Below are positions 26,717 to 41,985 of a DNA stretch of 64,000 nt, in pieces. A model generated the notes under the pieces. It saw nothing but the letters and a program-made list of their open reading frames with translations, was not told the DNA's origin and did not search any database. Every line of letters begins with the position of its first letter. The first letter of the stretch is position 1. Origin of the DNA: Nocardioides panacis (lineage in GTDB: Bacteria > Actinomycetota > Actinomycetes > Propionibacteriales > Nocardioidaceae); the NCBI RefSeq assembly GCF_019039255.1, contig NZ_CP077062.1, positions 496,001 through 560,000 of the forward strand, in the 5' to 3' direction. Position numbers and translations under genes: made by a program.

Positions 26717-27610
26717 GTGCAGCAGATGGGGCTGCGCGAGTACATCGACTCCCTGGGCAGCCAGGGCTACACCGTGCGTGACGACCACGGTGAGGACCCG
26801 GTCCTGATCCGTCCCGACGGGAGTGCCGTCGAGACGTGGCGGGAGGGCTACCCGTACGACGAGCTGATGAGCCGCAACGACTACGAGGTCGAGAAGTACC
26901 TCCTGCAGATCGAGCTGCTGAAGTTCCAGTACTGGGCGCAGGACACCAACCAGCGCCAGGTGATCGTCTTCGAGGGGCGTGACGCCGCGGGGAAGGGCGG
27001 GACGATCAAGCGCTTCATGGAGCACCTGAACCCGCGCTCCGCGCGCGTCGTCGCGCTGACCAAGCCCACCTCCACGGAGCTGGGCCAGTGGTACTTCCAG
27101 CGCTACGTCTCCCATCTCCCGACGTACGGCGACATCGTGCTGTTCGACCGCTCCTGGTACAACCGCGCCGGTGTCGAGCGCGTGATGGGGTTCTGCGACG
27201 AGGACGAGTACCGCACGTTCATGGGGCAGGCCCCGCTGTTCGAGGAGATGCTCCTCGAGTCGGGCGTCAACGTGACCAAGCTGTGGTTCTCGGTCACCCA
27301 GCAGGAGCAGCGGACCCGGTTCGCCGTGCGTCAGCTCGACCCGGTGCGTCGGTGGAAGCTCTCCCCGATGGACCTCGAGAGCCTCGACAAGTGGGAGGCC
27401 TACACGGCGGCCAAGGAGGAGATGTTCCTGCGCACCGACACCGACCACGCGCCGTGGTACACGGTCAAGAGCAACGACAAGAAGCGGGCCCGGGTCAACG
27501 CGCTCCGGCTGTTCCTGAGCCTCGTGGACTACGACGGCAAGGACGAGCAGATCGTGCTCCACCCCGACCCGCAGCTCGTCCAGCGCGGCCGCGAGGCCGT
27601 CGGCGACTGA
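26717..27610 (+). CDS. ppk2: Polyphosphate kinase 2 (PPK2)
   Basis: 297-residue single-domain PPK2. Walker A is GRDAAGKGG (residues 87-95), Walker B is within DIVLFDRSWYNRAGVERVMGF, and the lid region follows with SVTQQEQRTRFAVRQLDPVRRWKLSPMD. These enzymes transfer phosphate between polyphosphate and nucleotides, usually regenerating GTP or ATP. GTG at 26717 lies three bases after the SHOCT stop, indicating cotranscription. Class assignment (nucleoside mono- or diphosphate acceptor) cannot be settled by eye, though length and motifs fit the single-domain diphosphate-acting group. Confidence 0.92.
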   Translation: MQQMGLREYIDSLGSQGYTVRDDHGEDPVLIRPDGSAVETWREGYPYDELMSRNDYEVEKYLLQIELLKFQYWAQDTNQRQVIVFEGRDAAGKGGTIKRFMEHLNPRSARVVALTKPTSTELGQWYFQRYVSHLPTYGDIVLFDRSWYNRAGVERVMGFCDEDEYRTFMGQAPLFEEMLLESGVNVTKLWFSVTQQEQRTRFAVRQLDPVRRWKLSPMDLESLDKWEAYTAAKEEMFLRTDTDHAPWYTVKSNDKKRARVNALRLFLSLVDYDGKDEQIVLHPDPQLVQRGREAVGD

Positions 27611-29361: not shown

Positions 29362-29979
29362 ATGGACGCGGTCGAGGTGGTGTGGGCGCGCACCGACGAC
29401 CGGGGCGCGGCCGACCACCTGCTGCGCACCCTCGCCGAGCGGCACGGCGAGGTGGTGACGGTCGGCCGGGTCTGCCCGGGATGCGCCTCGCCCGACCACG
29501 GCCGGCCCTACCTGCGCGGCTGGCGCGGTGCCCGGCCGCCGGGCGTGAGCCTCTCCCGCACCCCCGGTACGACGGTCGTGGCGCTGTGGCCGGACGGGCA
29601 GGTCGGCGTCGACGTGGAGCGGGTCGACCGGTTCGCCGACCCCGGCCTCGCCGAGGTGCTGCTGCACCCGGGTGAACGGGCCGACCCGGTCGCCGGTCCG
29701 GCCGCCACGTGGGTGCGCAAGGAGGCGCTGCTCAAGGCGAGCGGCACGGGCCTCGCGGTCGACCCGCGCGCGGTGCGCCTGGACGTCGTCGACGGGACCC
29801 CGTGCGTCGCGGCGTGGCCGGCCGGGGTGCCGCAGCCCGGCTGGGTCGTCGACCTGGAGCTCGCGGACGGGCTCGTCGCGGCCCTGGCGGGGCAGGGCAC
29901 GGCGCCCCCCGACGTCAGCGTGCGGCGGGCAGGTCCGGGAGCGCCTCGCGGTGGAGCCACGCGTCCAGCAGGGCGGTGA
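29362..29979 (+). CDS. 4'-phosphopantetheinyl transferase (Sfp-type)
   Basis: 205 residues with the superfamily motifs VGVDVERVDRF (magnesium-binding aspartate/glutamate, about residues 74-84) and WVRKEALLKASGTGL (about 114-128). It transfers the phosphopantetheine arm of CoA to carrier-protein serines. The peptide synthetase at 31216 carries one such carrier domain, making it the obvious client. The C-terminal 25 residues overlap the convergent M1 peptidase gene by 65 bases and look less family-like; a run of six C at 29904-29909 nearby may hide another sequence error. ATG at 29362. Confidence 0.85.
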   Translation: MDAVEVVWARTDDRGAADHLLRTLAERHGEVVTVGRVCPGCASPDHGRPYLRGWRGARPPGVSLSRTPGTTVVALWPDGQVGVDVERVDRFADPGLAEVLLHPGERADPVAGPAATWVRKEALLKASGTGLAVDPRAVRLDVVDGTPCVAAWPAGVPQPGWVVDLELADGLVAALAGQGTAPPDVSVRRAGPGAPRGGATRPAGR

Positions 29980-31219
29980 GGTCGCACCCGGTGGAGAGCT
30001 CGGCGAACTCCACGAACGCGCCGGTGTTCACCGTCCCGTGCGCGTGCTTCGCGGTCCAGCCGCGCAGCAGGTCGAAGAACGCGGCGTCCCCGACCGTGAG
30101 CCGCAGCGCGTGCAGGGTCAGCGCGCCGCGCTTGTAGACCCGGTCGTCGAACATCAGCGCCGGCCCGGGGTCGGCGAGCACGAGGTCCTGGTCGAGGTCC
30201 CGGAGCCGCGCGTGGTGCTCCCGCGCGCGCCGGTGGGCGGTCGGGCCGCCGGACTCCTCGGACCAGATCCACTCGGCGTAGCAGGCGAACCCCTCGTGCA
30301 GCCAGATGTCCTGCCAGCGCCCGAGCGTCAGGCTGTTGCCGAACCACTGGTGCGACAGCTCGTGCGCGACCAGCCGGACCGAGTCCCAGTCGGAGGTCAG
30401 CAGGTTCGCCCCGAACGCGGAGAGCCCTTGTGCCTCCAGGGGGATCTCCAGGTCGTCGTCGGTGACCACGACGGTGTAGGCCTCGAACGGGTAGGGCCCG
30501 AACAGCCGCGTGAACGTGTCGACCATCTCCCGCTGGCGGCCGAACGCCGCGTCGTACCGTCCGAGCAGGCGCCGCGGCAGGACCGCGTGGATCGGCACGT
30601 CGCCGTCCTCGGTGCGCACCACGTAGCGGCCGACGTGCACGGTCGCGAGGTACGTCGCCATCGGCTCGTCCTGCTCGTAGACCCAGGTGGTCGAGCTCGC
30701 GTGCCGGCGGCTGCTGGTCAGCCGCCCGTTGGCGACCACGTGGTAGCCCGAGGCCACCGTCAGGCTGATCCGGTAGGTCGCCTTGTCCGACGGCCGGTCG
30801 TTGCAGGGGAACCAGCTCGGGGCGCCGTGCGGCTGACCCGCGACGATGACGCCGTCGGTGAGCTCCTCCCACCCGGCGGTGCCGAGGCTGCGGGTCTTCA
30901 GCGGGGTGGGGTGGCCGGCGTAGCGGACGGTGACGGTGAACTCCTCGCCGACCGGCACCGGTGCCGCGGGGCGCAGCAGCAGGGACCCGCGGCGGTCGCG
31001 GTAGCGCACCGCGCGGCCGTCGAGGGTGACCTTGGAGACGTCGAGCAGGTGCAGGTCGAGGGTGATCTCGCCGGTCTCCTCGCGGGCCACGCACTCGAGC
31101 CGCGCGGTGCCCTCGAGGCGGTTGGTCTCCACGTCGTAGGCGAGGTTCAGGTCGTAGTGGGTGACGTCGTAGTCGAGGGCGCCGTGCCCGGGGACGTAGG
31201 GGTCCGCTCCGGACGTCAT
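29915..31219 (-). CDS. M1-family zinc metallopeptidase
   Basis: 434 residues. The zinc site is His286-Glu287-x-x-His290 with Glu309 in WLHEGFACYAEW. The exopeptidase GxMEN motif is replaced by LEAQG (residues 261-265), as in the short, single-module M1 branch that lacks the C-terminal helical domain of aminopeptidase N. No signal peptide is visible. Its ATG overlaps the stop of the Pls/PosA-type synthetase (ATGA), so it is translationally coupled to it and may process or degrade the synthetase product. That link is inference. Confidence 0.88.
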   Translation of the reverse strand: MTSGADPYVPGHGALDYDVTHYDLNLAYDVETNRLEGTARLECVAREETGEITLDLHLLDVSKVTLDGRAVRYRDRRGSLLLRPAAPVPVGEEFTVTVRYAGHPTPLKTRSLGTAGWEELTDGVIVAGQPHGAPSWFPCNDRPSDKATYRISLTVASGYHVVANGRLTSSRRHASSTTWVYEQDEPMATYLATVHVGRYVVRTEDGDVPIHAVLPRRLLGRYDAAFGRQREMVDTFTRLFGPYPFEAYTVVVTDDDLEIPLEAQGLSAFGANLLTSDWDSVRLVAHELSHQWFGNSLTLGRWQDIWLHEGFACYAEWIWSEESGGPTAHRRAREHHARLRDLDQDLVLADPGPALMFDDRVYKRGALTLHALRLTVGDAAFFDLLRGWTAKHAHGTVNTGAFVEFAELSTGCDLTALLDAWLHREALPDLPAAR

Positions 31220-34200
31220 GGGGTGGGCACGGCGTCGTCGGCCCACGGGCCGATCGGGTTCCCGACCCAGCGGGTCTTGTCCGGCACCAGCTCACCCCTC
31301 ATCACCAAGGAAACGGGGCCAACGGTAGCGTCCCGGCCGATCGTCGCGGCAGGCAGGATCACGCTGTTGGGGCCCAGGGTGGACCCCCGTCGCAGGACCA
31401 CCCTGTCCATGCTCATCACGCGGTCGTGGAACAGGTGTGTCTGCACCACGCAGCCGGCGTTCACCGTCGCGCCGTCCCGGAGCTCCACGAGGTCCGGCTC
31501 GGGCAGCCAGTAGGTCTCGCACCACACGCCCCGGCCGATCGTGGTGCCCAGGGACCGCAGCCACACGTTCAGGGCCGGCGTGCCGGTGGCGGGACGGGCG
31601 AACCACGGCGCGGCGACCAGCTCGACGAACGCGTCCGCGAGCTCGTTGCGCCACACGAACGAGCTCCACAGCGGTCGGTCCACGACCCGCAGCCGACCGA
31701 CGAGCAGCCACTTGGCCGCCGTCGTGACGGCCGCCGCGACCAGACCGGCGAGCATCAGGACCGGGCCGGACAGCACGGCCGCCACCACGAGGCCCAGCCG
31801 GTCGGCCAGCAGCTCGAGCCCGGTCACCACCGCGAGCGCCAGCGCGGCCGCCACCATCACCGGCACCAGCCGGCAGAGCTCGACCGCCGCGCGGGCCAGC
31901 CGCAGCCGCAGGGCCGGGTCGTAGGTGCGGCTGCTGTCGGCGTCGTCGCTGTCCCGTCGCAGCCGGGTCGGCGGGCTGCCCAGCCAGGACGAGCCAGCCT
32001 TGGCGTGCTTGCGGCGGGGAGCGGCCGAGAGCACCGCCACCAGGGACTGCTTGGGCACCTTCCGGCCGGCCGCGGCCATCCCGGAGTTGCCGACGAAGGC
32101 CCGCTTGCCGATCTTCACCCGCTCGACCCGGAGCCACCCGCCGCCGAGCTCGTAGCTGCCGATCAGGGTGTCGTCGGCCAGGAACGCCTGGTCGTTGACG
32201 CTGGTCAGGCTCGGGATCATCAGCACCGTCGACGCCTCGACGTTGCTGCCGATCGTGGCCCCGAGCCGGCGCAGCCACCAGGGCGTGATCGTGCTCGCGT
32301 AGACCGGGTAGAGCCAGGTGCGGGCCTCGTCGAGGACCCGCAGCGTGGCCCACGCCTGGAGGGCGCGCCGGCTGTGCACGGGGTAGTGGCCCGACTCCAG
32401 CCCCAGCGCGCACAGGCGTACGACGGCCACGACGAGCACCGCCAGCGTCACGAGTGCGGCGACCACGGCCGCGGGCAGCAGCTCCAGCGCCGTGAGCGCC
32501 GCGTCCCCGATGCCGGTCGACGCGCGCAGCGCCGGGGTGACGACGAGCAGCCCGACCGCCACGGCGACCAGCGGGAGCAGCGCGAGCCCGACGGCGGCCG
32601 CGCCGTACGCCAGGGTCCAGCGGGTGCTGCGGCCCGGCCGCTCGGTGGACCAGTGGCCCCGGGCACCCGAGACCCGCTCGGCCGGCGACCCGGACCAGGA
32701 CTCGCCACGGGGGACGCGTCCGTGCACCGCGGACCCCGGCGAGACCTCGGCCCCCCGTCCGACCCGGGCGCCCGGGCCGAGGGTGCTGCGGGTGCCGATC
32801 CGGGCTCCCGCGCCGACCTCGACGGCGCCGATGTGCAGCACGTCCCCGTCGAGCCAGTGCCCGGTCAGGTCGACCTCGGGCTCGACCGAGCAGCCGTCGC
32901 CCAGGCGGAGGAAGCCGGTCACCGGCGGCACCGAGTGCAGGTCGACGCCGTCGCCGACCCGGGCGCCCAGCGCCCGTGCGTAGTGCTGCATCCACGGCGC
33001 ACCCGACTGGTTCACCGCCCCGGTCTCGTCGGCCAGCCGCTCGGCCAGCCAGAGCCGCAGGTGCACCTTGCCGCCGCGGGGGTAGGTGCCGGGGACGACC
33101 CGGGCGAGGAGCACCCGGGCGCCGACCGCGCTGATCGTCATCCGGCCCACCGGGGAGACCAGCACCAGCCAGCCGGCCAGCACCCACCACCACGACACGG
33201 TCGGCAGGAAGCCCAGTCCCAGCAGGCCGGAGGCCAGGTTGCTGCCGGCCGCCACCCAGGTCAGCCAGCGCAGGCCGGAGACGGTGCGCAGCGCGACGGT
33301 GAAGCCGAGCTGCCCCACCTGGGTCTTGGTCGGCGTCGGCCGGACCCGGCGGGTGGTGCGCGCCGCGGGCGCCTGCATCGCGTCCAGGGCGCGGGCCAGG
33401 GAGGCGACGGTGGGGTTCTCGTAGAGGTCGGCGACGGTCGTCTCCGGGAAGCGGGTGCGCAGCCGCGAGACGATCTGGGCGGCGGTCAGGCTGCCCCCGC
33501 CGAGCGCGAAGAAGTCGTCGGCGCCGGAGCTGACGTCCGCGCCGATGACCTCCAGCCACAGGTCCGCGACCCACTGCTCGGTCGGCGTGAGCGGCGTGCG
33601 CTCCCGGGGGGCGCCGGCGGTGTCGGGGAGCGGCCAGGGCAGCGCGTCGCGGTCGACCTTGCCAGAGGTCTTGGTGGGGAGCGACGCCACGACGGCCAGC
33701 CGGGGCACCAGAGCCGCCGGGAGCGAGGCGCGGAGCGCCGCGACGGCCGCGGTCTGGTCGAACGTCTCGTCGGTCTGCAGGTAGCCGACCAGCAGCGAGT
33801 TGCCCGCCTGGGTCCGGCGGACCGCGGCGGCGGCGCCCTGCACCCCGGGCAGCCGCCGCAGCGCGCTGTCGATCTCGCCGAGCTCGATGCGCCGCCCGCC
33901 GAGCTTGACCTGGTCGTCGGCCCGGCCCTGGAACAGCAGGCCCTCCCCGTCGAAGCGGACCAGGTCGCCGCTGCGGTAGGCGCGCTCCCAGCCGAGCGTC
34001 GGCATCGGGGCGTACTTCTCGGCGTCCTTGGCCGGGTCGAGGTAGCGCGCCAGCCCGACGCCGCCGATGATCAGCTCGCCGACCTGCCCGGGCTCGACCG
34101 GCGCCCCGGCCGCGTCGACGACCGCGAGGTCCCAGCCGTCCAGCGGCAGCCCGATGCGCACCGGCCCCTCCCGGTCCAGGCGGGCCCCGCAGGCCACCAC

Positions 34201-35115
34201 CGTCGCCTCGGTCGGGCCGTAGGTGTTCCAGACCTCGCGCCCGGGGTGGACCAGCCGGGCGCCGATCTCCGGCGGGCAGGCCTCGCCGCCCAGGATCAGC
34301 AGGCGTACGGCGGCCAGCGACTCGGTCGGCCACAGCGTGACGAGCGTCGGCACCGTGGAGACCACCGTGACGTCGTTGGCCTGGAGCCACGGACCGACGT
34401 CGACGCCGCTGCGCACCAGCGAGCGCGGGGCCGGCACCAGGCAGCCGCCGTGCGCCCAGGCCAGCCACATCTCCTCGCACGAGGCGTCGAAGGCGACCGA
34501 CAGCCCGGCCATCACCCGGTCGCGGCTGCCCAGCGGGCGATCGGTCAGGAACAGCCGCGACTCCGCGTCGACGAAGGCGGCCGCGGACCGGTGCGACACG
34601 GCCACCCCTTTGGGGGTGCCGGTCGACCCGGACGTGAAGATCACCCAGGCGTCGTCGTCCGGAGTCGGGCCCTCGTCGGTGCGGGGCTCCGAAGGCGGTC
34701 GCCGCAGCGCGACGGCCAGGTCGTTGCCGACCACCGCGGCCACCGCGGCCTCCCCGAAGACCAGCCGGGCCCGGTCGTCGGGGTCCTCGGCGTCCACCGG
34801 CACGTAGGCCGCGCCGGCCACCAGGACACCCATGATCGCGACGTACAGGTCGGTGGTGCCGGACTTGACCCGCACGCCCACCCGGTCGCCCGGGCCGATG
34901 CCGGCGGCGTTGAGCTCGGCCGCCAGCCCGGCCGCCGCGTCGGCGAACTCCCGGTAGGTGAGCTGCTCGGCCCCGTTGTCCAGCGCCCGGGCGTCGGGCA
35001 CGCTCTCGACGACCTCGTCGAAGATGTCGGTCAGGGTGCGCGGAGGGGGCGCGGCCGTGGAGCGCAGCAGCACCGCGTCCGCCCGGGCAGGACCGGCGTC
35101 AGGTGGCGTCCGCAC
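31216..35115 (-). CDS. Pls/PosA-family non-ribosomal peptide synthetase (A-T-membrane hexapeptide-repeat)
   Basis: 1299 residues. The adenylation domain spans about 25-500 (A3 motif IFTSGSTGTPKG at 159-170, NTYGPTEA, catalytic Lys486 in TKTSGKVDRD). A carrier domain follows with the pantetheine serine Ser542 in GGGSL. The remaining 750 residues alternate membrane helices with hexapeptide-repeat (left-handed beta-helix) blocks such as GARIGTRSTLGPGARVG and GRDATVGPVSLVM, replacing normal condensation domains, as in epsilon-poly-lysine synthetase. The pocket begins Asp-Ala after FD, with Glu at the position of residue 239 of GrsA; the acid hints at a basic substrate but is weak evidence. I chose GTG 35115; later or earlier starts are possible. 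Confidence 0.88.
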   Translation of the reverse strand: MRTPPDAGPARADAVLLRSTAAPPPRTLTDIFDEVVESVPDARALDNGAEQLTYREFADAAAGLAAELNAAGIGPGDRVGVRVKSGTTDLYVAIMGVLVAGAAYVPVDAEDPDDRARLVFGEAAVAAVVGNDLAVALRRPPSEPRTDEGPTPDDDAWVIFTSGSTGTPKGVAVSHRSAAAFVDAESRLFLTDRPLGSRDRVMAGLSVAFDASCEEMWLAWAHGGCLVPAPRSLVRSGVDVGPWLQANDVTVVSTVPTLVTLWPTESLAAVRLLILGGEACPPEIGARLVHPGREVWNTYGPTEATVVACGARLDREGPVRIGLPLDGWDLAVVDAAGAPVEPGQVGELIIGGVGLARYLDPAKDAEKYAPMPTLGWERAYRSGDLVRFDGEGLLFQGRADDQVKLGGRRIELGEIDSALRRLPGVQGAAAAVRRTQAGNSLLVGYLQTDETFDQTAAVAALRASLPAALVPRLAVVASLPTKTSGKVDRDALPWPLPDTAGAPRERTPLTPTEQWVADLWLEVIGADVSSGADDFFALGGGSLTAAQIVSRLRTRFPETTVADLYENPTVASLARALDAMQAPAARTTRRVRPTPTKTQVGQLGFTVALRTVSGLRWLTWVAAGSNLASGLLGLGFLPTVSWWWVLAGWLVLVSPVGRMTISAVGARVLLARVVPGTYPRGGKVHLRLWLAERLADETGAVNQSGAPWMQHYARALGARVGDGVDLHSVPPVTGFLRLGDGCSVEPEVDLTGHWLDGDVLHIGAVEVGAGARIGTRSTLGPGARVGRGAEVSPGSAVHGRVPRGESWSGSPAERVSGARGHWSTERPGRSTRWTLAYGAAAVGLALLPLVAVAVGLLVVTPALRASTGIGDAALTALELLPAAVVAALVTLAVLVVAVVRLCALGLESGHYPVHSRRALQAWATLRVLDEARTWLYPVYASTITPWWLRRLGATIGSNVEASTVLMIPSLTSVNDQAFLADDTLIGSYELGGGWLRVERVKIGKRAFVGNSGMAAAGRKVPKQSLVAVLSAAPRRKHAKAGSSWLGSPPTRLRRDSDDADSSRTYDPALRLRLARAAVELCRLVPVMVAAALALAVVTGLELLADRLGLVVAAVLSGPVLMLAGLVAAAVTTAAKWLLVGRLRVVDRPLWSSFVWRNELADAFVELVAAPWFARPATGTPALNVWLRSLGTTIGRGVWCETYWLPEPDLVELRDGATVNAGCVVQTHLFHDRVMSMDRVVLRRGSTLGPNSVILPAATIGRDATVGPVSLVMRGELVPDKTRWVGNPIGPWADDAVPTP

Positions 35116-35170: not shown

Positions 35171-35365
35171 TCAGACGGGGGCGTGTGACCTCGGATCCGT
35201 CGACAGGGTGAGCCGGGCCACGGCCGCCCTCTCGACCAGCACCGGGACGAAGTCCCGGATCGGGTCACCGTCGAACTCGTGGTGCAGGGCCTGGACGACG
35301 GCGTCGACGACGTCGGGCCGGGTCTCGGGGAACTTCGCCTGCAGGCGCCGGGTCACCTCGGACAT
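35171..35365 (-). CDS. Three-helix-bundle dimerisation domain protein
   Basis: 64 residues with the pattern SEVTRRLQAKFPETRPDVVDAVVQALHHEFDG and PIRDFVPVLVERAAVARL, matching small actinobacterial proteins predicted to be helical dimers. ATG 35365 has GAAGAGGGG upstream; ATG 35392 is an in-frame alternative. No function is known. It lies upstream of the synthetase on the same strand and diverges from the CHAD gene. Confidence 0.7.
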   Translation of the reverse strand: MSEVTRRLQAKFPETRPDVVDAVVQALHHEFDGDPIRDFVPVLVERAAVARLTLSTDPRSHAPV

Positions 35366-35572
35366 CGCCTGCCCCTCTTCACGAATCTCCATGGGTCGAG
35401 TCAAACGCGCTGCCGGGTCCGGCGGCAATGGCCCGCTCGTCGTACGCACGAGTAGCCCCAAGTGTTCATCTTCGGCGGCCGGACGGGCCGTTCATCCCGG
35501 GCGGCTACCCTGCCCGACCTCACCGGGACACTCTGGTCCTGTGCCGTCACAGTGAGCCCACGAGGAACCCCC

Positions 35573-36484
35573 ATGCCGAAGTCCGACAGCGGCCGGAGCC
35601 GCGTCAGCGCGGCCGAGGTCCTGGCGCCCGTCCTGGCCGCGCAGGTCACCGACCTGCGCGCCTGGGAGGTCGGGGTGCGGCTCGCCCAGCCGGAGGCGAC
35701 CCACGGCTTCCGGGTAGCCGCCCGGCGGCTGCGCAGCATGCTGGCGGCGTTCGGCCCGCTGATGGACCAGGAGGCGGCCGACGAGCTCGCCGAGCAGCTG
35801 AAGCGCGCGGCGGGCGCCATCGGCGGGGCCCGGGACTCCGAGATCGTCCAGGCCCGGGTCGAGGCCCTGCTCGGCGAGGAGGCCGACGACCTCGACGTCG
35901 CCGGGACGCGGGAGCGGCTCAGCCGGCGGCTCGAGGAGTCCTACGAGGCCAGCCGGCAGGCGTCGATCGAACACCTCGACAGCCCGGAGTACGACGCGTT
36001 CGTCCGTCACCTCGAGGCCTTCGTCGACCTGCCCGCGTGGACGGACGCGGCGCGGGGACGCGCCGAGAAGGTGCTGCGGCCGCTGCTGCGGGCGGAGTGG
36101 TCCCGGTTCCGCAAGCGCACCCAGCGGGCGCTCACCGGCACGCCGGGACCGGAGCAGGACGTCCGGATGCACGACGCCCGCAAGAGCGCGAAGCGGGCCC
36201 GCTACGTCGCCGAGTCGCTGGTGCCGCTGTTCGGGCGCAGGGCCAGACGGTTGGGGAAGGCCGCGGAGCGCGTGCAGGTGGTGCTCGGCGACCACCAGGA
36301 CTGCGTGCTCACCCAGCGGGTGCTCCGCGAGGTGGGCGAGCAGGCGTTCCGGGACGGCGAGAACCCGTTCCTGCTCGGCCGGCTGCAGGCCCGCGAGGCG
36401 GCGGCCGCCGCGGACCTGCGCGCCGACTTCACCCGGGTGGCGGCCGCCGCGGACCGGCCGTCGCTGCGCCGCTGGCTCGACTAG
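35573..36484 (+). CDS. CHAD domain protein
   Basis: 303 residues of all-alpha CHAD fold. Conserved basic/histidine motifs are HGFRVAARRLRSML, ARDSEIVQARVE, HDARKSAKRARYVAE and LGDHQDCVL. CHAD domains bind polyphosphate, so this may localise to polyphosphate granules; the PPK2 gene is nine kilobases away. The ATG at 35573 has CGAGGAA upstream. The 207-base divergent region contains only weak TCATCC half sites (35492). Confidence 0.88.
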   Translation: MPKSDSGRSRVSAAEVLAPVLAAQVTDLRAWEVGVRLAQPEATHGFRVAARRLRSMLAAFGPLMDQEAADELAEQLKRAAGAIGGARDSEIVQARVEALLGEEADDLDVAGTRERLSRRLEESYEASRQASIEHLDSPEYDAFVRHLEAFVDLPAWTDAARGRAEKVLRPLLRAEWSRFRKRTQRALTGTPGPEQDVRMHDARKSAKRARYVAESLVPLFGRRARRLGKAAERVQVVLGDHQDCVLTQRVLREVGEQAFRDGENPFLLGRLQAREAAAAADLRADFTRVAAAADRPSLRRWLD

Positions 36485-39735: not shown

Positions 39736-39819
39736 GGCGCCGTCCCGGCCCTCGGCGGCAGGATCGGCGTCGGTGAGGCGGCGCACCGCGGGCTGCCGCT
39801 CGAGGTCCGAGGAGCGGTG

Positions 39820-41985
39820 ATGAAGACCGGCCGGTTCGCGAAGGGGTCCGCCCAGCAGCAGTCGTCGGTCGCGCTGGGCCGGGAGTCGCTCGACGCCCCG
39901 TGGACGGTGCGGGCGCTCGCGCTGCTCGCCCGGATCGCGGTCACCTCCCTCGCCGTGGTGGTGTGCGACTGGGTGCTCCCCGGCTTCCAGACCGACTCGC
40001 CCGAGGGTCCGATCACCTTTGCGGTGCTGCTCGGCGTCGTCTCCCTGGTGATGCAGCCCCTGATGGTGGGCGGGGCCGTCCTGCTGGGGTGGGCCGGCGT
40101 GCTCCTGCTGGCCTTCGTCGGTCAGGCCGCCGTGGTGCTCGTGACCGCGCAGCTGCTGCCGAGCGTCGAGGTCGACGGCTTCGTGACCGCGCTGCTCGTG
40201 GCGGTCGTCGTGGGCCTGGTGGGCTCGGTGGCCAGCTGGTTCAGCACGGCCGGTACGTCGCAGGCGCTCGTCGGGCGGCTGGTGGCGTCGGCCCGGCGAA
40301 GGCCCGCGGTCGTGGCGGATCCCGAGGTCGACGGCGTGGTCTTCGTGCAGCTGGACGGGGTGCCGTTCCCGGTGCTCCAGATGGCGATCACCGCCGGCAC
40401 GGTCCCCACGCTCACGCGGTGGGTGCGCGCCGGCAGCCACACGCTCGGCGAGTGGACCCCGAAGCTGCCGGCCACCACCCCGGCCAGCCAGATGGGCATC
40501 CTGCACGGGGTGATCGACGGGATCCCGGCGTTCCGGTGGTACGACCGGGCCGAGGACCGGGTGATGGTGGCCAACAAGCCCCGGGACGCCGCGCTCATCG
40601 AGGAGTCGCTGACGACCGGTCACGGCCTGCTCGCCGACGGCGGCGCCAGCATCAGCAACCTCTTCACCGGCGACGCCCCGGTGTCGGCGCTGACGATGAG
40701 CCGTCGTGCCGGCGCGGACGACACGACCCGTCGCGCGGTCGCGCACTTCGTGCTGCACCCCACCGGTCTGACCCGGGCCGTGTCCCGGTCTGTCTCGGAG
40801 CTCGCGCGCGACCGGTTCCAGACCCGTCGGGCGATCCACCGCGACGTACGACCGCGGTGCGAACGCACCTGGACGACGGCGCTGCTGCGGTGCGTCACCA
40901 ACGGCGTGCTACGCGACGTCAACACGGTCCTGGTGGCCCAGCACATGCTGGGCGGGACGCGCTCGATCTACGTCGACTACGTGGACTACGACGAGATCGC
41001 GCACCACGCGGGGATGCTGCGGCCGGAGAGCCTCGAGGCGCTGGAGGCCGTCGACGGGGTGCTGCACCAGCTCGAGATGGTCGCCCGGGTGGCACCTCGG
41101 CGCTACCACTTCGTCGTGCTGTCCGACCACGGCCAGTCGCAGGGCGCCACGTTCTCCGACCGGTACGACGAGGAGCTCGGCGCCCTGGTGGCACGGCTCG
41201 CCAGCGCCACGGTCTCCTCCTCCGAGAGCGACATCGAGGGCTGGGGCCGGACCCGGGCCCTCGTCGACGACCTCGGCGCCGGCTCGGGCATGAGCGCGCG
41301 CGCCATGCGCAACGTCTCCGAGGCGATGGACCGGGACAGCCGGCACCAGGACGCCGCCCCGGCGGGCACGCCGGCTGTCGTCCCGGCGCCGGGCCTCGCG
41401 GACCGAACCTTCCACGTCTTCGGCTCCGGCAACCTGGGCCTGGTCTACGTGCGGGGCGAGGAGCGGCAGCTGACCCGGCAGCAGCTCGACGAACGGTTCC
41501 CCGCGCTGGTCGCCGGGCTGGCCGCCCACCCCGGCATCGCGTTCGCCGTCGTCACCGACGAGCTCGAGGGTCCGGTGGCGCTCGGGTCCGGCGGGTCCCG
41601 CCGGCTGCGGGACGGCCTGGTCCGCGGGACCGATCCGCTGCTGCCGTTCGGCGAGCGGGCCAACGACTTCGTGCTGCGCGTCGCCACGCGGCCCGAGGCA
41701 CCCGACATCTACGTCAACAGCCTGCTGGAGCCCGGCACCGAGGAGGTGGCCGCCTTCGAGGGCCTCGTCGGCTGCCACGGCGGTCTCGGCGGCTGGCAGG
41801 AGCGTGCGTGCCTGGTGGTGCCGGCGCACCTGCCCTGGCCGGACGCACCGCTCGTGGGCGCCGATGCCCTGCACGTCGCGCTGCGGGACGTCCTGGTCCA
41901 CCTGGGGCACCGGCGGCAGCTCTCCGAGGCGGACCGGGGACCCGGCGAGCCGGCTCCCCAGGCCCCGGTCGGGACGTCCGGATAG
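39820..41985 (+). CDS. Holin-like membrane domain fused to an alkaline-phosphatase-superfamily hydrolase
   Basis: 721 residues. The first 150 residues contain four hydrophobic helices of the phage-holin/DUF360 type (VLPGFQTDSPEGPITFAVLL, VSLVMQPLMVGGAVLLGW, LLPSVEVDGFVTALLVAVVVGLVG). From about residue 170 an alkaline-phosphatase-like metalloenzyme domain begins: VFVQLDGVPFPVLQMA carries the first metal aspartate, TPKLPATTPASQMGILHG the nucleophile threonine region, YVDYDEIAHHAG and VLSDHGQSQGATF further metal ligands. Predicted membrane-anchored phosphodiesterase or phosphatase. ATG 39820 has GAGGAG five bases upstream; GTG 39817 is too close. Confidence 0.85.
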   Translation: MKTGRFAKGSAQQQSSVALGRESLDAPWTVRALALLARIAVTSLAVVVCDWVLPGFQTDSPEGPITFAVLLGVVSLVMQPLMVGGAVLLGWAGVLLLAFVGQAAVVLVTAQLLPSVEVDGFVTALLVAVVVGLVGSVASWFSTAGTSQALVGRLVASARRRPAVVADPEVDGVVFVQLDGVPFPVLQMAITAGTVPTLTRWVRAGSHTLGEWTPKLPATTPASQMGILHGVIDGIPAFRWYDRAEDRVMVANKPRDAALIEESLTTGHGLLADGGASISNLFTGDAPVSALTMSRRAGADDTTRRAVAHFVLHPTGLTRAVSRSVSELARDRFQTRRAIHRDVRPRCERTWTTALLRCVTNGVLRDVNTVLVAQHMLGGTRSIYVDYVDYDEIAHHAGMLRPESLEALEAVDGVLHQLEMVARVAPRRYHFVVLSDHGQSQGATFSDRYDEELGALVARLASATVSSSESDIEGWGRTRALVDDLGAGSGMSARAMRNVSEAMDRDSRHQDAAPAGTPAVVPAPGLADRTFHVFGSGNLGLVYVRGEERQLTRQQLDERFPALVAGLAAHPGIAFAVVTDELEGPVALGSGGSRRLRDGLVRGTDPLLPFGERANDFVLRVATRPEAPDIYVNSLLEPGTEEVAAFEGLVGCHGGLGGWQERACLVVPAHLPWPDAPLVGADALHVALRDVLVHLGHRRQLSEADRGPGEPAPQAPVGTSG

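Follow-up and report, generated by a model that had tools for sequence, protein, structure and literature searches.

ε-Polylysine is a marketed food preservative, and its role for the organisms that make it has been called unclear (PMC9606270). In Streptomyces albulus the synthetase gene pls and the peptidase gene pldII are organized in one operon and overlap by 4 bp (PMC4361855). PldII, encoded by a gene of 1404 bp (PMC9223678), is described as a translationally coupled, polymer-degrading enzyme with a location outside the membrane, for which a function in self-protection has been proposed (PMC9223678, PMC8117764). The pls-pldII arrangement has also been described for Corynebacterium (PMC8117764), a Pls homolog of Nocardia was reported in 2014 (PMC4035055), and the layout of Pls with three C-terminal domains has already been published (PMC8506220). 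The same enzyme class includes PosA, the δ-poly-L-ornithine synthetase of Acinetobacter baumannii, which is reported to have no cotranscribed neighbors (PMC10522769). Here, a locus of Nocardioides panacis is compared with these systems. It was analyzed within a window of 64,000 nt, by which the whole stretch from 496,001 to 560,000 of contig NZ_CP077062.1 (assembly GCF_019039255.1) is meant, and all positions below are window positions. A search of the open-licence literature for Nocardioides together with poly-L-lysine and nonribosomal peptide synthetases (NRPSs) returned no paper.

The locus consists of three genes, and the coordinates originally predicted for them were confirmed from the sequence. 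They encode an Sfp-like 4'-phosphopantetheinyl transferase of 205 aa with an ATG start (29,362-29,979, plus strand), a short two-domain M1 metallopeptidase of 434 aa, which is PldII-like (29,915-31,219, minus strand), and a predicted Pls-type ε-poly-L-lysine synthetase of 1299 aa (31,216-35,115, minus strand). The GTG start of the latter at 35,115 is assumed, and a second, longer in-frame start is possible at 35,268. The predicted coupling of synthetase and peptidase was indeed found, as the stop codon of the former and the start codon of the latter overlap by 4 bp in the sequence ATGA (31,219-31,216, minus strand). The transferase gene is convergent on the peptidase gene, with 65 bp shared by their 3' ends (29,915-29,979), and thus lies outside the transcript unit of the synthetase-peptidase pair. 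Probably, the locus represents a pls-pldII-type operon with a linked activating transferase, which would make and hydrolyze ε-poly-L-lysine. The synthetase-peptidase pair is an established system, to which the locus adds little: a transferase that is linked and a peptidase that has no leader.

The synthetase matches TIGR02353, the "Pls/PosA family NRPS", which names both Pls and PosA, with 719.7 bits at a cut-off of 423.1, and it contains the Pfam domains AMP-binding, PP-binding, and Hexapep. One adenylation domain (about residues 25-495, 33,631-35,043) and one carrier (thiolation) domain (residues 514-577, 33,385-33,576; PF00550, 49.1 bits) are followed by a C-terminal membrane region (residues 591-1299, 31,219-33,345; TIGR02353 match to residues 607-1288), so that the predicted order of domains, with membrane helices and hexapeptide blocks at the end, proved correct. 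Among solved structures, the adenylation domain scored 624.7 bits with 7wew, the adenylation domain of S. albulus Pls, and 191 bits with 8g95, which is PosA (PMC10522769); a second comparison with 7wew gave 627.4 bits. As a stand-in for the S. albulus enzyme, Pls from Streptomyces sp. NBC_01454 was taken, which reached 866.9 bits with 7wew and is 54% identical to the N. panacis synthetase. For comparative analyses, 80 orthologous loci were taken from the matches listed in one genome scan (at least 80), and an alignment of 81 synthetases, i.e., the one in the window and those of the 80 loci, was used. The carrier serine in the motif GGGS and the pocket code DAESIGTVVK are present in all 81 sequences. 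The ten pocket positions were set by the motif anchors of Stachelhaus rather than by an alignment to GrsA. In the printed alignment 7wew has identical residues at all ten of them, and from this identity we infer that lysine is the substrate, i.e., that the adenylation domain would activate L-lysine. The cationic homopolymer or isopeptide that had been suggested as the product can thus be narrowed, on the strength of the pocket, to a putative ε-poly-L-lysine, although the arrangement itself had already been published. The likeness to the S. albulus enzyme extends over the adenylation and thiolation domains, the helices, three hexapeptide-type domains, the pocket, and the 4-bp overlap with the peptidase gene.

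The C-terminal region (residues 591-1299) was modeled together with 58 relatives, with a predicted local distance difference test (pLDDT) score of 89.9 and a predicted template modeling (TM) score of 0.90. Three tandem hexapeptide-type, acetyltransferase-like domains are present after the membrane helices that follow the adenylation and thiolation domains. The thirds of the region align pairwise by profile (E-values of 5.8e-18, 3.2e-15, and 1.6e-8), and the region is therefore a triplication of a unit of helices plus β-helix domain. In a structural comparison, the rows of which mainly cover the first hexapeptide domain, this domain was serine acetyltransferase-like (Z up to 15.6). Residues that are kept in at least 80 of the 81 sequences were found in the first unit (D725, H727) and in the third unit (Q1225, T1226, H1227, H1230, D1231, R1232), and no histidine is conserved to this degree in the second unit. 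Because of its conserved residues, the third unit is put forward as a candidate reaction centre.

The pairing of synthetase and peptidase is widely conserved. An M1 gene is located downstream of the synthetase gene in 78 of the 80 loci, which argues against a chance pairing. The distance from the synthetase stop codon is at most 150 bp in 72 of these 78 loci and 621-2166 bp in the other six, and 39 of the 78 pairs would allow an overlap of 4 bp. The original prediction had regarded the three genes as one locus, and the survey of the neighbors of synthetase orthologs showed that both are kept, to different extents: the M1 gene clearly belongs to the locus, but the transferase adjoins it in only 18 of the 80 loci.

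The assignment to the M1 family is based on matches to PF01433 and PF17900 (90.2 and 63.9 bits) and on a structural model with a pLDDT of 95.9, the closest fold of which is the two-domain M1 peptidase of Deinococcus radiodurans (6a8z, 6koz; TM score 0.91, 32% identity). In an alignment of 79 M1 proteins, i.e., that of the window and those of the 78 loci, E262, the HEXXH motif (286-290), E309, and Y362 are kept in 78, the exception being the protein of locus L060, which is incomplete because it is cut off at a contig end. The literal GxMEN motif is absent, as the original prediction had stressed. However, this is not a sign of an odd activity: the equivalent segment is IPLEAQG, its glutamate is kept in 78 of the 79 proteins, and the D. 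radiodurans enzyme also lacks a literal GxMEN and retains the glutamate in LALETAG. As IP(L/I/V)E is found throughout the pls-linked M1 branch, in which the zinc site and the tyrosine are intact, the absence of GxMEN is normal there. The gene that follows pls in Streptomyces sp. NBC_01454, with a 4-bp overlap, also has a length of 1404 bp and is annotated as "M1 family metallopeptidase"; since place and length are the same as those of pldII, PldII is taken to be an M1 enzyme. The N. panacis peptidase thus resembles S. albulus PldII in position, translational coupling, and, via this annotation, family. By analogy it may hydrolyze ε-polylysine. The predicted pairing of a homopolymer synthetase with a peptidase that can degrade the product is supported, but trimming is presumptive and is disputed even in Streptomyces, where inactivation of Pld and PldII left the chain length unchanged according to a review (PMC8506220), and repression by CRISPR interference was reported to yield longer chains (PMC9223678).

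The predicted location of the peptidase differs from that reported for its counterpart in S. albulus. No export signal was found in the N. panacis M1 frame: the first conserved aspartate can have no more than 14 residues in front of it, which leaves no room for such a signal, and no hydrophobic stretch is present among them. The peptidases of Streptomyces sp. NBC_01454 and BHT-5-2 begin with VTRCSRRALLRG and continue with a hydrophobic segment, and thus have a twin-arginine-like leader, which the N. panacis enzyme lacks. The hydropathy values over 15 residues are 1.94 and 1.36 for these two and at most 0.52 for the other four M1 genes found in the plasmid-collection records that were fetched. 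In 69 of the 78 loci there is room for the hydropathy window, and the maximum in the 45 residues before the conserved aspartate is 1.08. The outer-surface location of S. albulus PldII is thus a trait that the N. panacis peptidase does not share by sequence, and for this reason it is called PldII-like. One alternative is that it nevertheless guards the cell surface against secreted polymer, as proposed for Streptomyces, where PldII is described as being outside the membrane and required for tolerance (PMC9223678). This is unlikely for N. panacis, given the short stretch before the conserved aspartate and the presence of a leader, among the M1 frames with room for the hydropathy window, in the two Streptomyces orthologs only, and without an export signal the surface-protection account of PldII is not transferable. 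Leaderless export may occur. The simplest reading of the sequence is that the N. panacis peptidase would clear or recycle the polymer in the cytoplasm. A search for pldII and signal peptides in the open-licence literature gave no report of a missing peptidase leader.

The gene next to the pair had been predicted to encode an Sfp-type transferase, and this holds. The protein matches the ACPS family PF01648 with 38.3 bits at a cut-off of 25 and contains VGVDVE and WVRKEALLK, in agreement with the Sfp-type motifs G-[VI]-D-x-E and W-x-x-K-E-x-x-x-K. The 18 loci with an adjoining transferase gene were found by two methods, and the gene is always convergent, its open frame beginning between -121 and +257 bp from the M1 stop codon. 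It is present in 8 of 13 loci of the Micrococcales, in 10 of 24 other loci (Nocardioidaceae, Micropruina, and metagenome-assembled genomes), and in none of 38 loci of the Mycobacteriales or five of Kribbella; the genera are those given in the titles of the records and were assigned to orders accordingly. The linked transferases are divergent, and several lack the first lysine of the WxxKE motif. Genome-wide counts were obtained by profile searches with a loose first pass, which may miss weak members. The N. panacis genome contains two matches to PF01648, one of them the linked transferase, and two to PF00550, namely the synthetase and a frame of 113 residues, which is probably the fatty-acid acyl carrier protein. 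In a family survey of 37 genomes at least two PF01648 matches were found in 7 of 7 genomes with a full-length Pls, one of which is split over two contigs, versus 9 of 30 without (Fisher p 0.0011, uncorrected for kinship). Within the family the transferase is linked in G001 and G004, which belong to the same genus as N. panacis, a copy lies about 12 kb away in G012, and the contigs of G022 are too broken to judge. Probably, the linked transferase activates the synthetase. It is rather improbable that it is a general-purpose neighbor whose proximity is unrelated to the synthetase: the missing linkage in most loci, among them all 38 of the Mycobacteriales, would fit such a role, although four of the unlinked loci end less than 700 bp from the M1 gene and could not have shown a transferase, but the same convergent orientation in the 18 loci and in G001 and G004 speaks for a connection, as does the fact that the sole other carrier match in the N. 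panacis genome is the 113-residue frame. No report of a phosphopantetheinyl transferase linked to Pls was found in the open-licence literature.

Several observations weigh against this picture of a three-part system for ε-poly-L-lysine. The transferase scores below every NCBIfam cut-off, the only match being PRK00070.3-2 with 24.6 bits at a cut-off of 107, and it is not located beside Pls in 62 of the 80 loci nor in the family members G011 and G024. An M1 gene was not found nearby in two of the 80 loci, both from Gordonia (L099, L105), and among nine fetched plasmid-collection records it is present in six, with none nearby in those of Rhodococcus opacus, Mycobacterium intracellulare, and Streptantibioticus cattleyicolor. 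Since loci without M1 exist, the peptidase is not indispensable. In the M. intracellulare plasmid stretch (L121) an enzyme of this class occurs in other surroundings: its Pls/PosA synthetase gene lies beside a large NRPS gene and overlaps a gene of the pyridoxal phosphate-dependent cysteine synthase family by 4 bp. Corynebacterium variabile has been described as having a functional Pls but no polymer in culture (PMC8117764). Furthermore, mutation of the linker tryptophan W646 of S. albulus Pls shortens the polymer (PMC8506220), and the N. panacis synthetase has a phenylalanine, F636, at the position aligned with the linker tryptophan of the Streptomyces enzymes, including that of NBC_01454 (the residue numbers of the Streptomyces tryptophans differ by one, and their equivalence is presumed). 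Phenylalanine occurs at this position in 3 and tryptophan in 70 of the 81 sequences. With F636 in the linker, the output may differ from that of Streptomyces Pls, and the residue leads to a prediction about chain length.

Least probable is that another isopeptide polymer (poly-ornithine, poly-β-lysine, or poly-diaminobutyrate) is made and that the peptidase is a general aminopeptidase, because, although a pocket code alone is no proof of specificity and different polymers are made by enzymes of the class whose pockets differ (PMC10522769), all ten pocket residues read for N. panacis are those of 7wew, and this pocket is common to all 80 loci and fits neither the published code of PosA (DMEHNGTVSK) nor that of poly-β-lysine synthetase (DGESISVVNK), while alanine at code position 2 is described as accompanying lysine (PMC10522769).

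For the preferred reading, a make-and-hydrolyze system for ε-poly-L-lysine, the following sequence of events is proposed. The transferase would load the phosphopantetheine arm onto the carrier serine of the synthetase, the adenylation domain would activate L-lysine, and the lysine would then be held on the carrier. The three membrane-anchored hexapeptide-type domains would join lysines via the side-chain amino group, as is known for published Pls enzymes, yielding ε-poly-L-lysine. The translationally coupled M1 peptidase would hydrolyze the polymer, as known for PldII, and, being in the cytoplasm, would clear or recycle polymer that is still inside the cell.

The surroundings of the locus are variable. 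The synthetase gene is preceded, at a distance of 55 bp from its start and on the same strand, by an open frame of 73 codons (35,171-35,392, minus strand), with which the transcript could begin. The portion searched had no Pfam match, and a relative was found upstream of a CHAD gene and Pls in only one of the 80 loci (L050). A larger conserved cluster was considered and dropped, since each neighbor, i.e., NhaA, alcohol dehydrogenase, PPK2, SulP, AI-2E transporter, metallo-β-lactamase fold, and phosphodiesterase, recurs in zero to two of the 80 loci. A defense system was dropped as well, because a PADLOC search with the three proteins gave no match. A polyphosphate kinase 2 gene (26,723-27,610, plus strand) and a CHAD-domain gene (35,573-36,484, plus strand) are located on either side of the locus. 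CHAD domains are associated with polyphosphate. A CHAD gene lies directly upstream of Pls in L050 alone among the 80 loci, and in a plasmid of R. opacus a CYTH/CHAD gene is located upstream at a distance of about 2 kb. From these few cases, a polycation-polyanion connection is conceivable. Further away, a single protein (39,817-41,985, plus strand) fuses a membrane domain of the "mycobacterial 4 TMS phage holin" type with a type I phosphodiesterase domain.

Of 296 genomes drawn evenly across the phylum, that of N. panacis among them, 14 had a match at an E-value of 1e-150 or better, and the distribution of the system is therefore patchy. The N. panacis locus predicts an ε-polylysine producer outside Streptomyces, and within the searches made it offers a simple setting, in which the synthetase, its candidate activating enzyme, and the peptidase are each represented once. 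If the peptidase is intracellular, it would need to have a function different from the self-protection at the cell surface that has been suggested for PldII of Streptomyces. A bolder proposal, to which we assign a low probability, is that the pls-M1 pair of many actinobacteria outside Streptomyces represents an intracellular make-and-break cycle rather than an antibiotic that is exported and countered by immunity at the surface, and that the leader-bearing PldII is a derived form of antibiotic producers. If this were true, ε-polylysine would be a store of lysine or nitrogen or a partner for polyanions.

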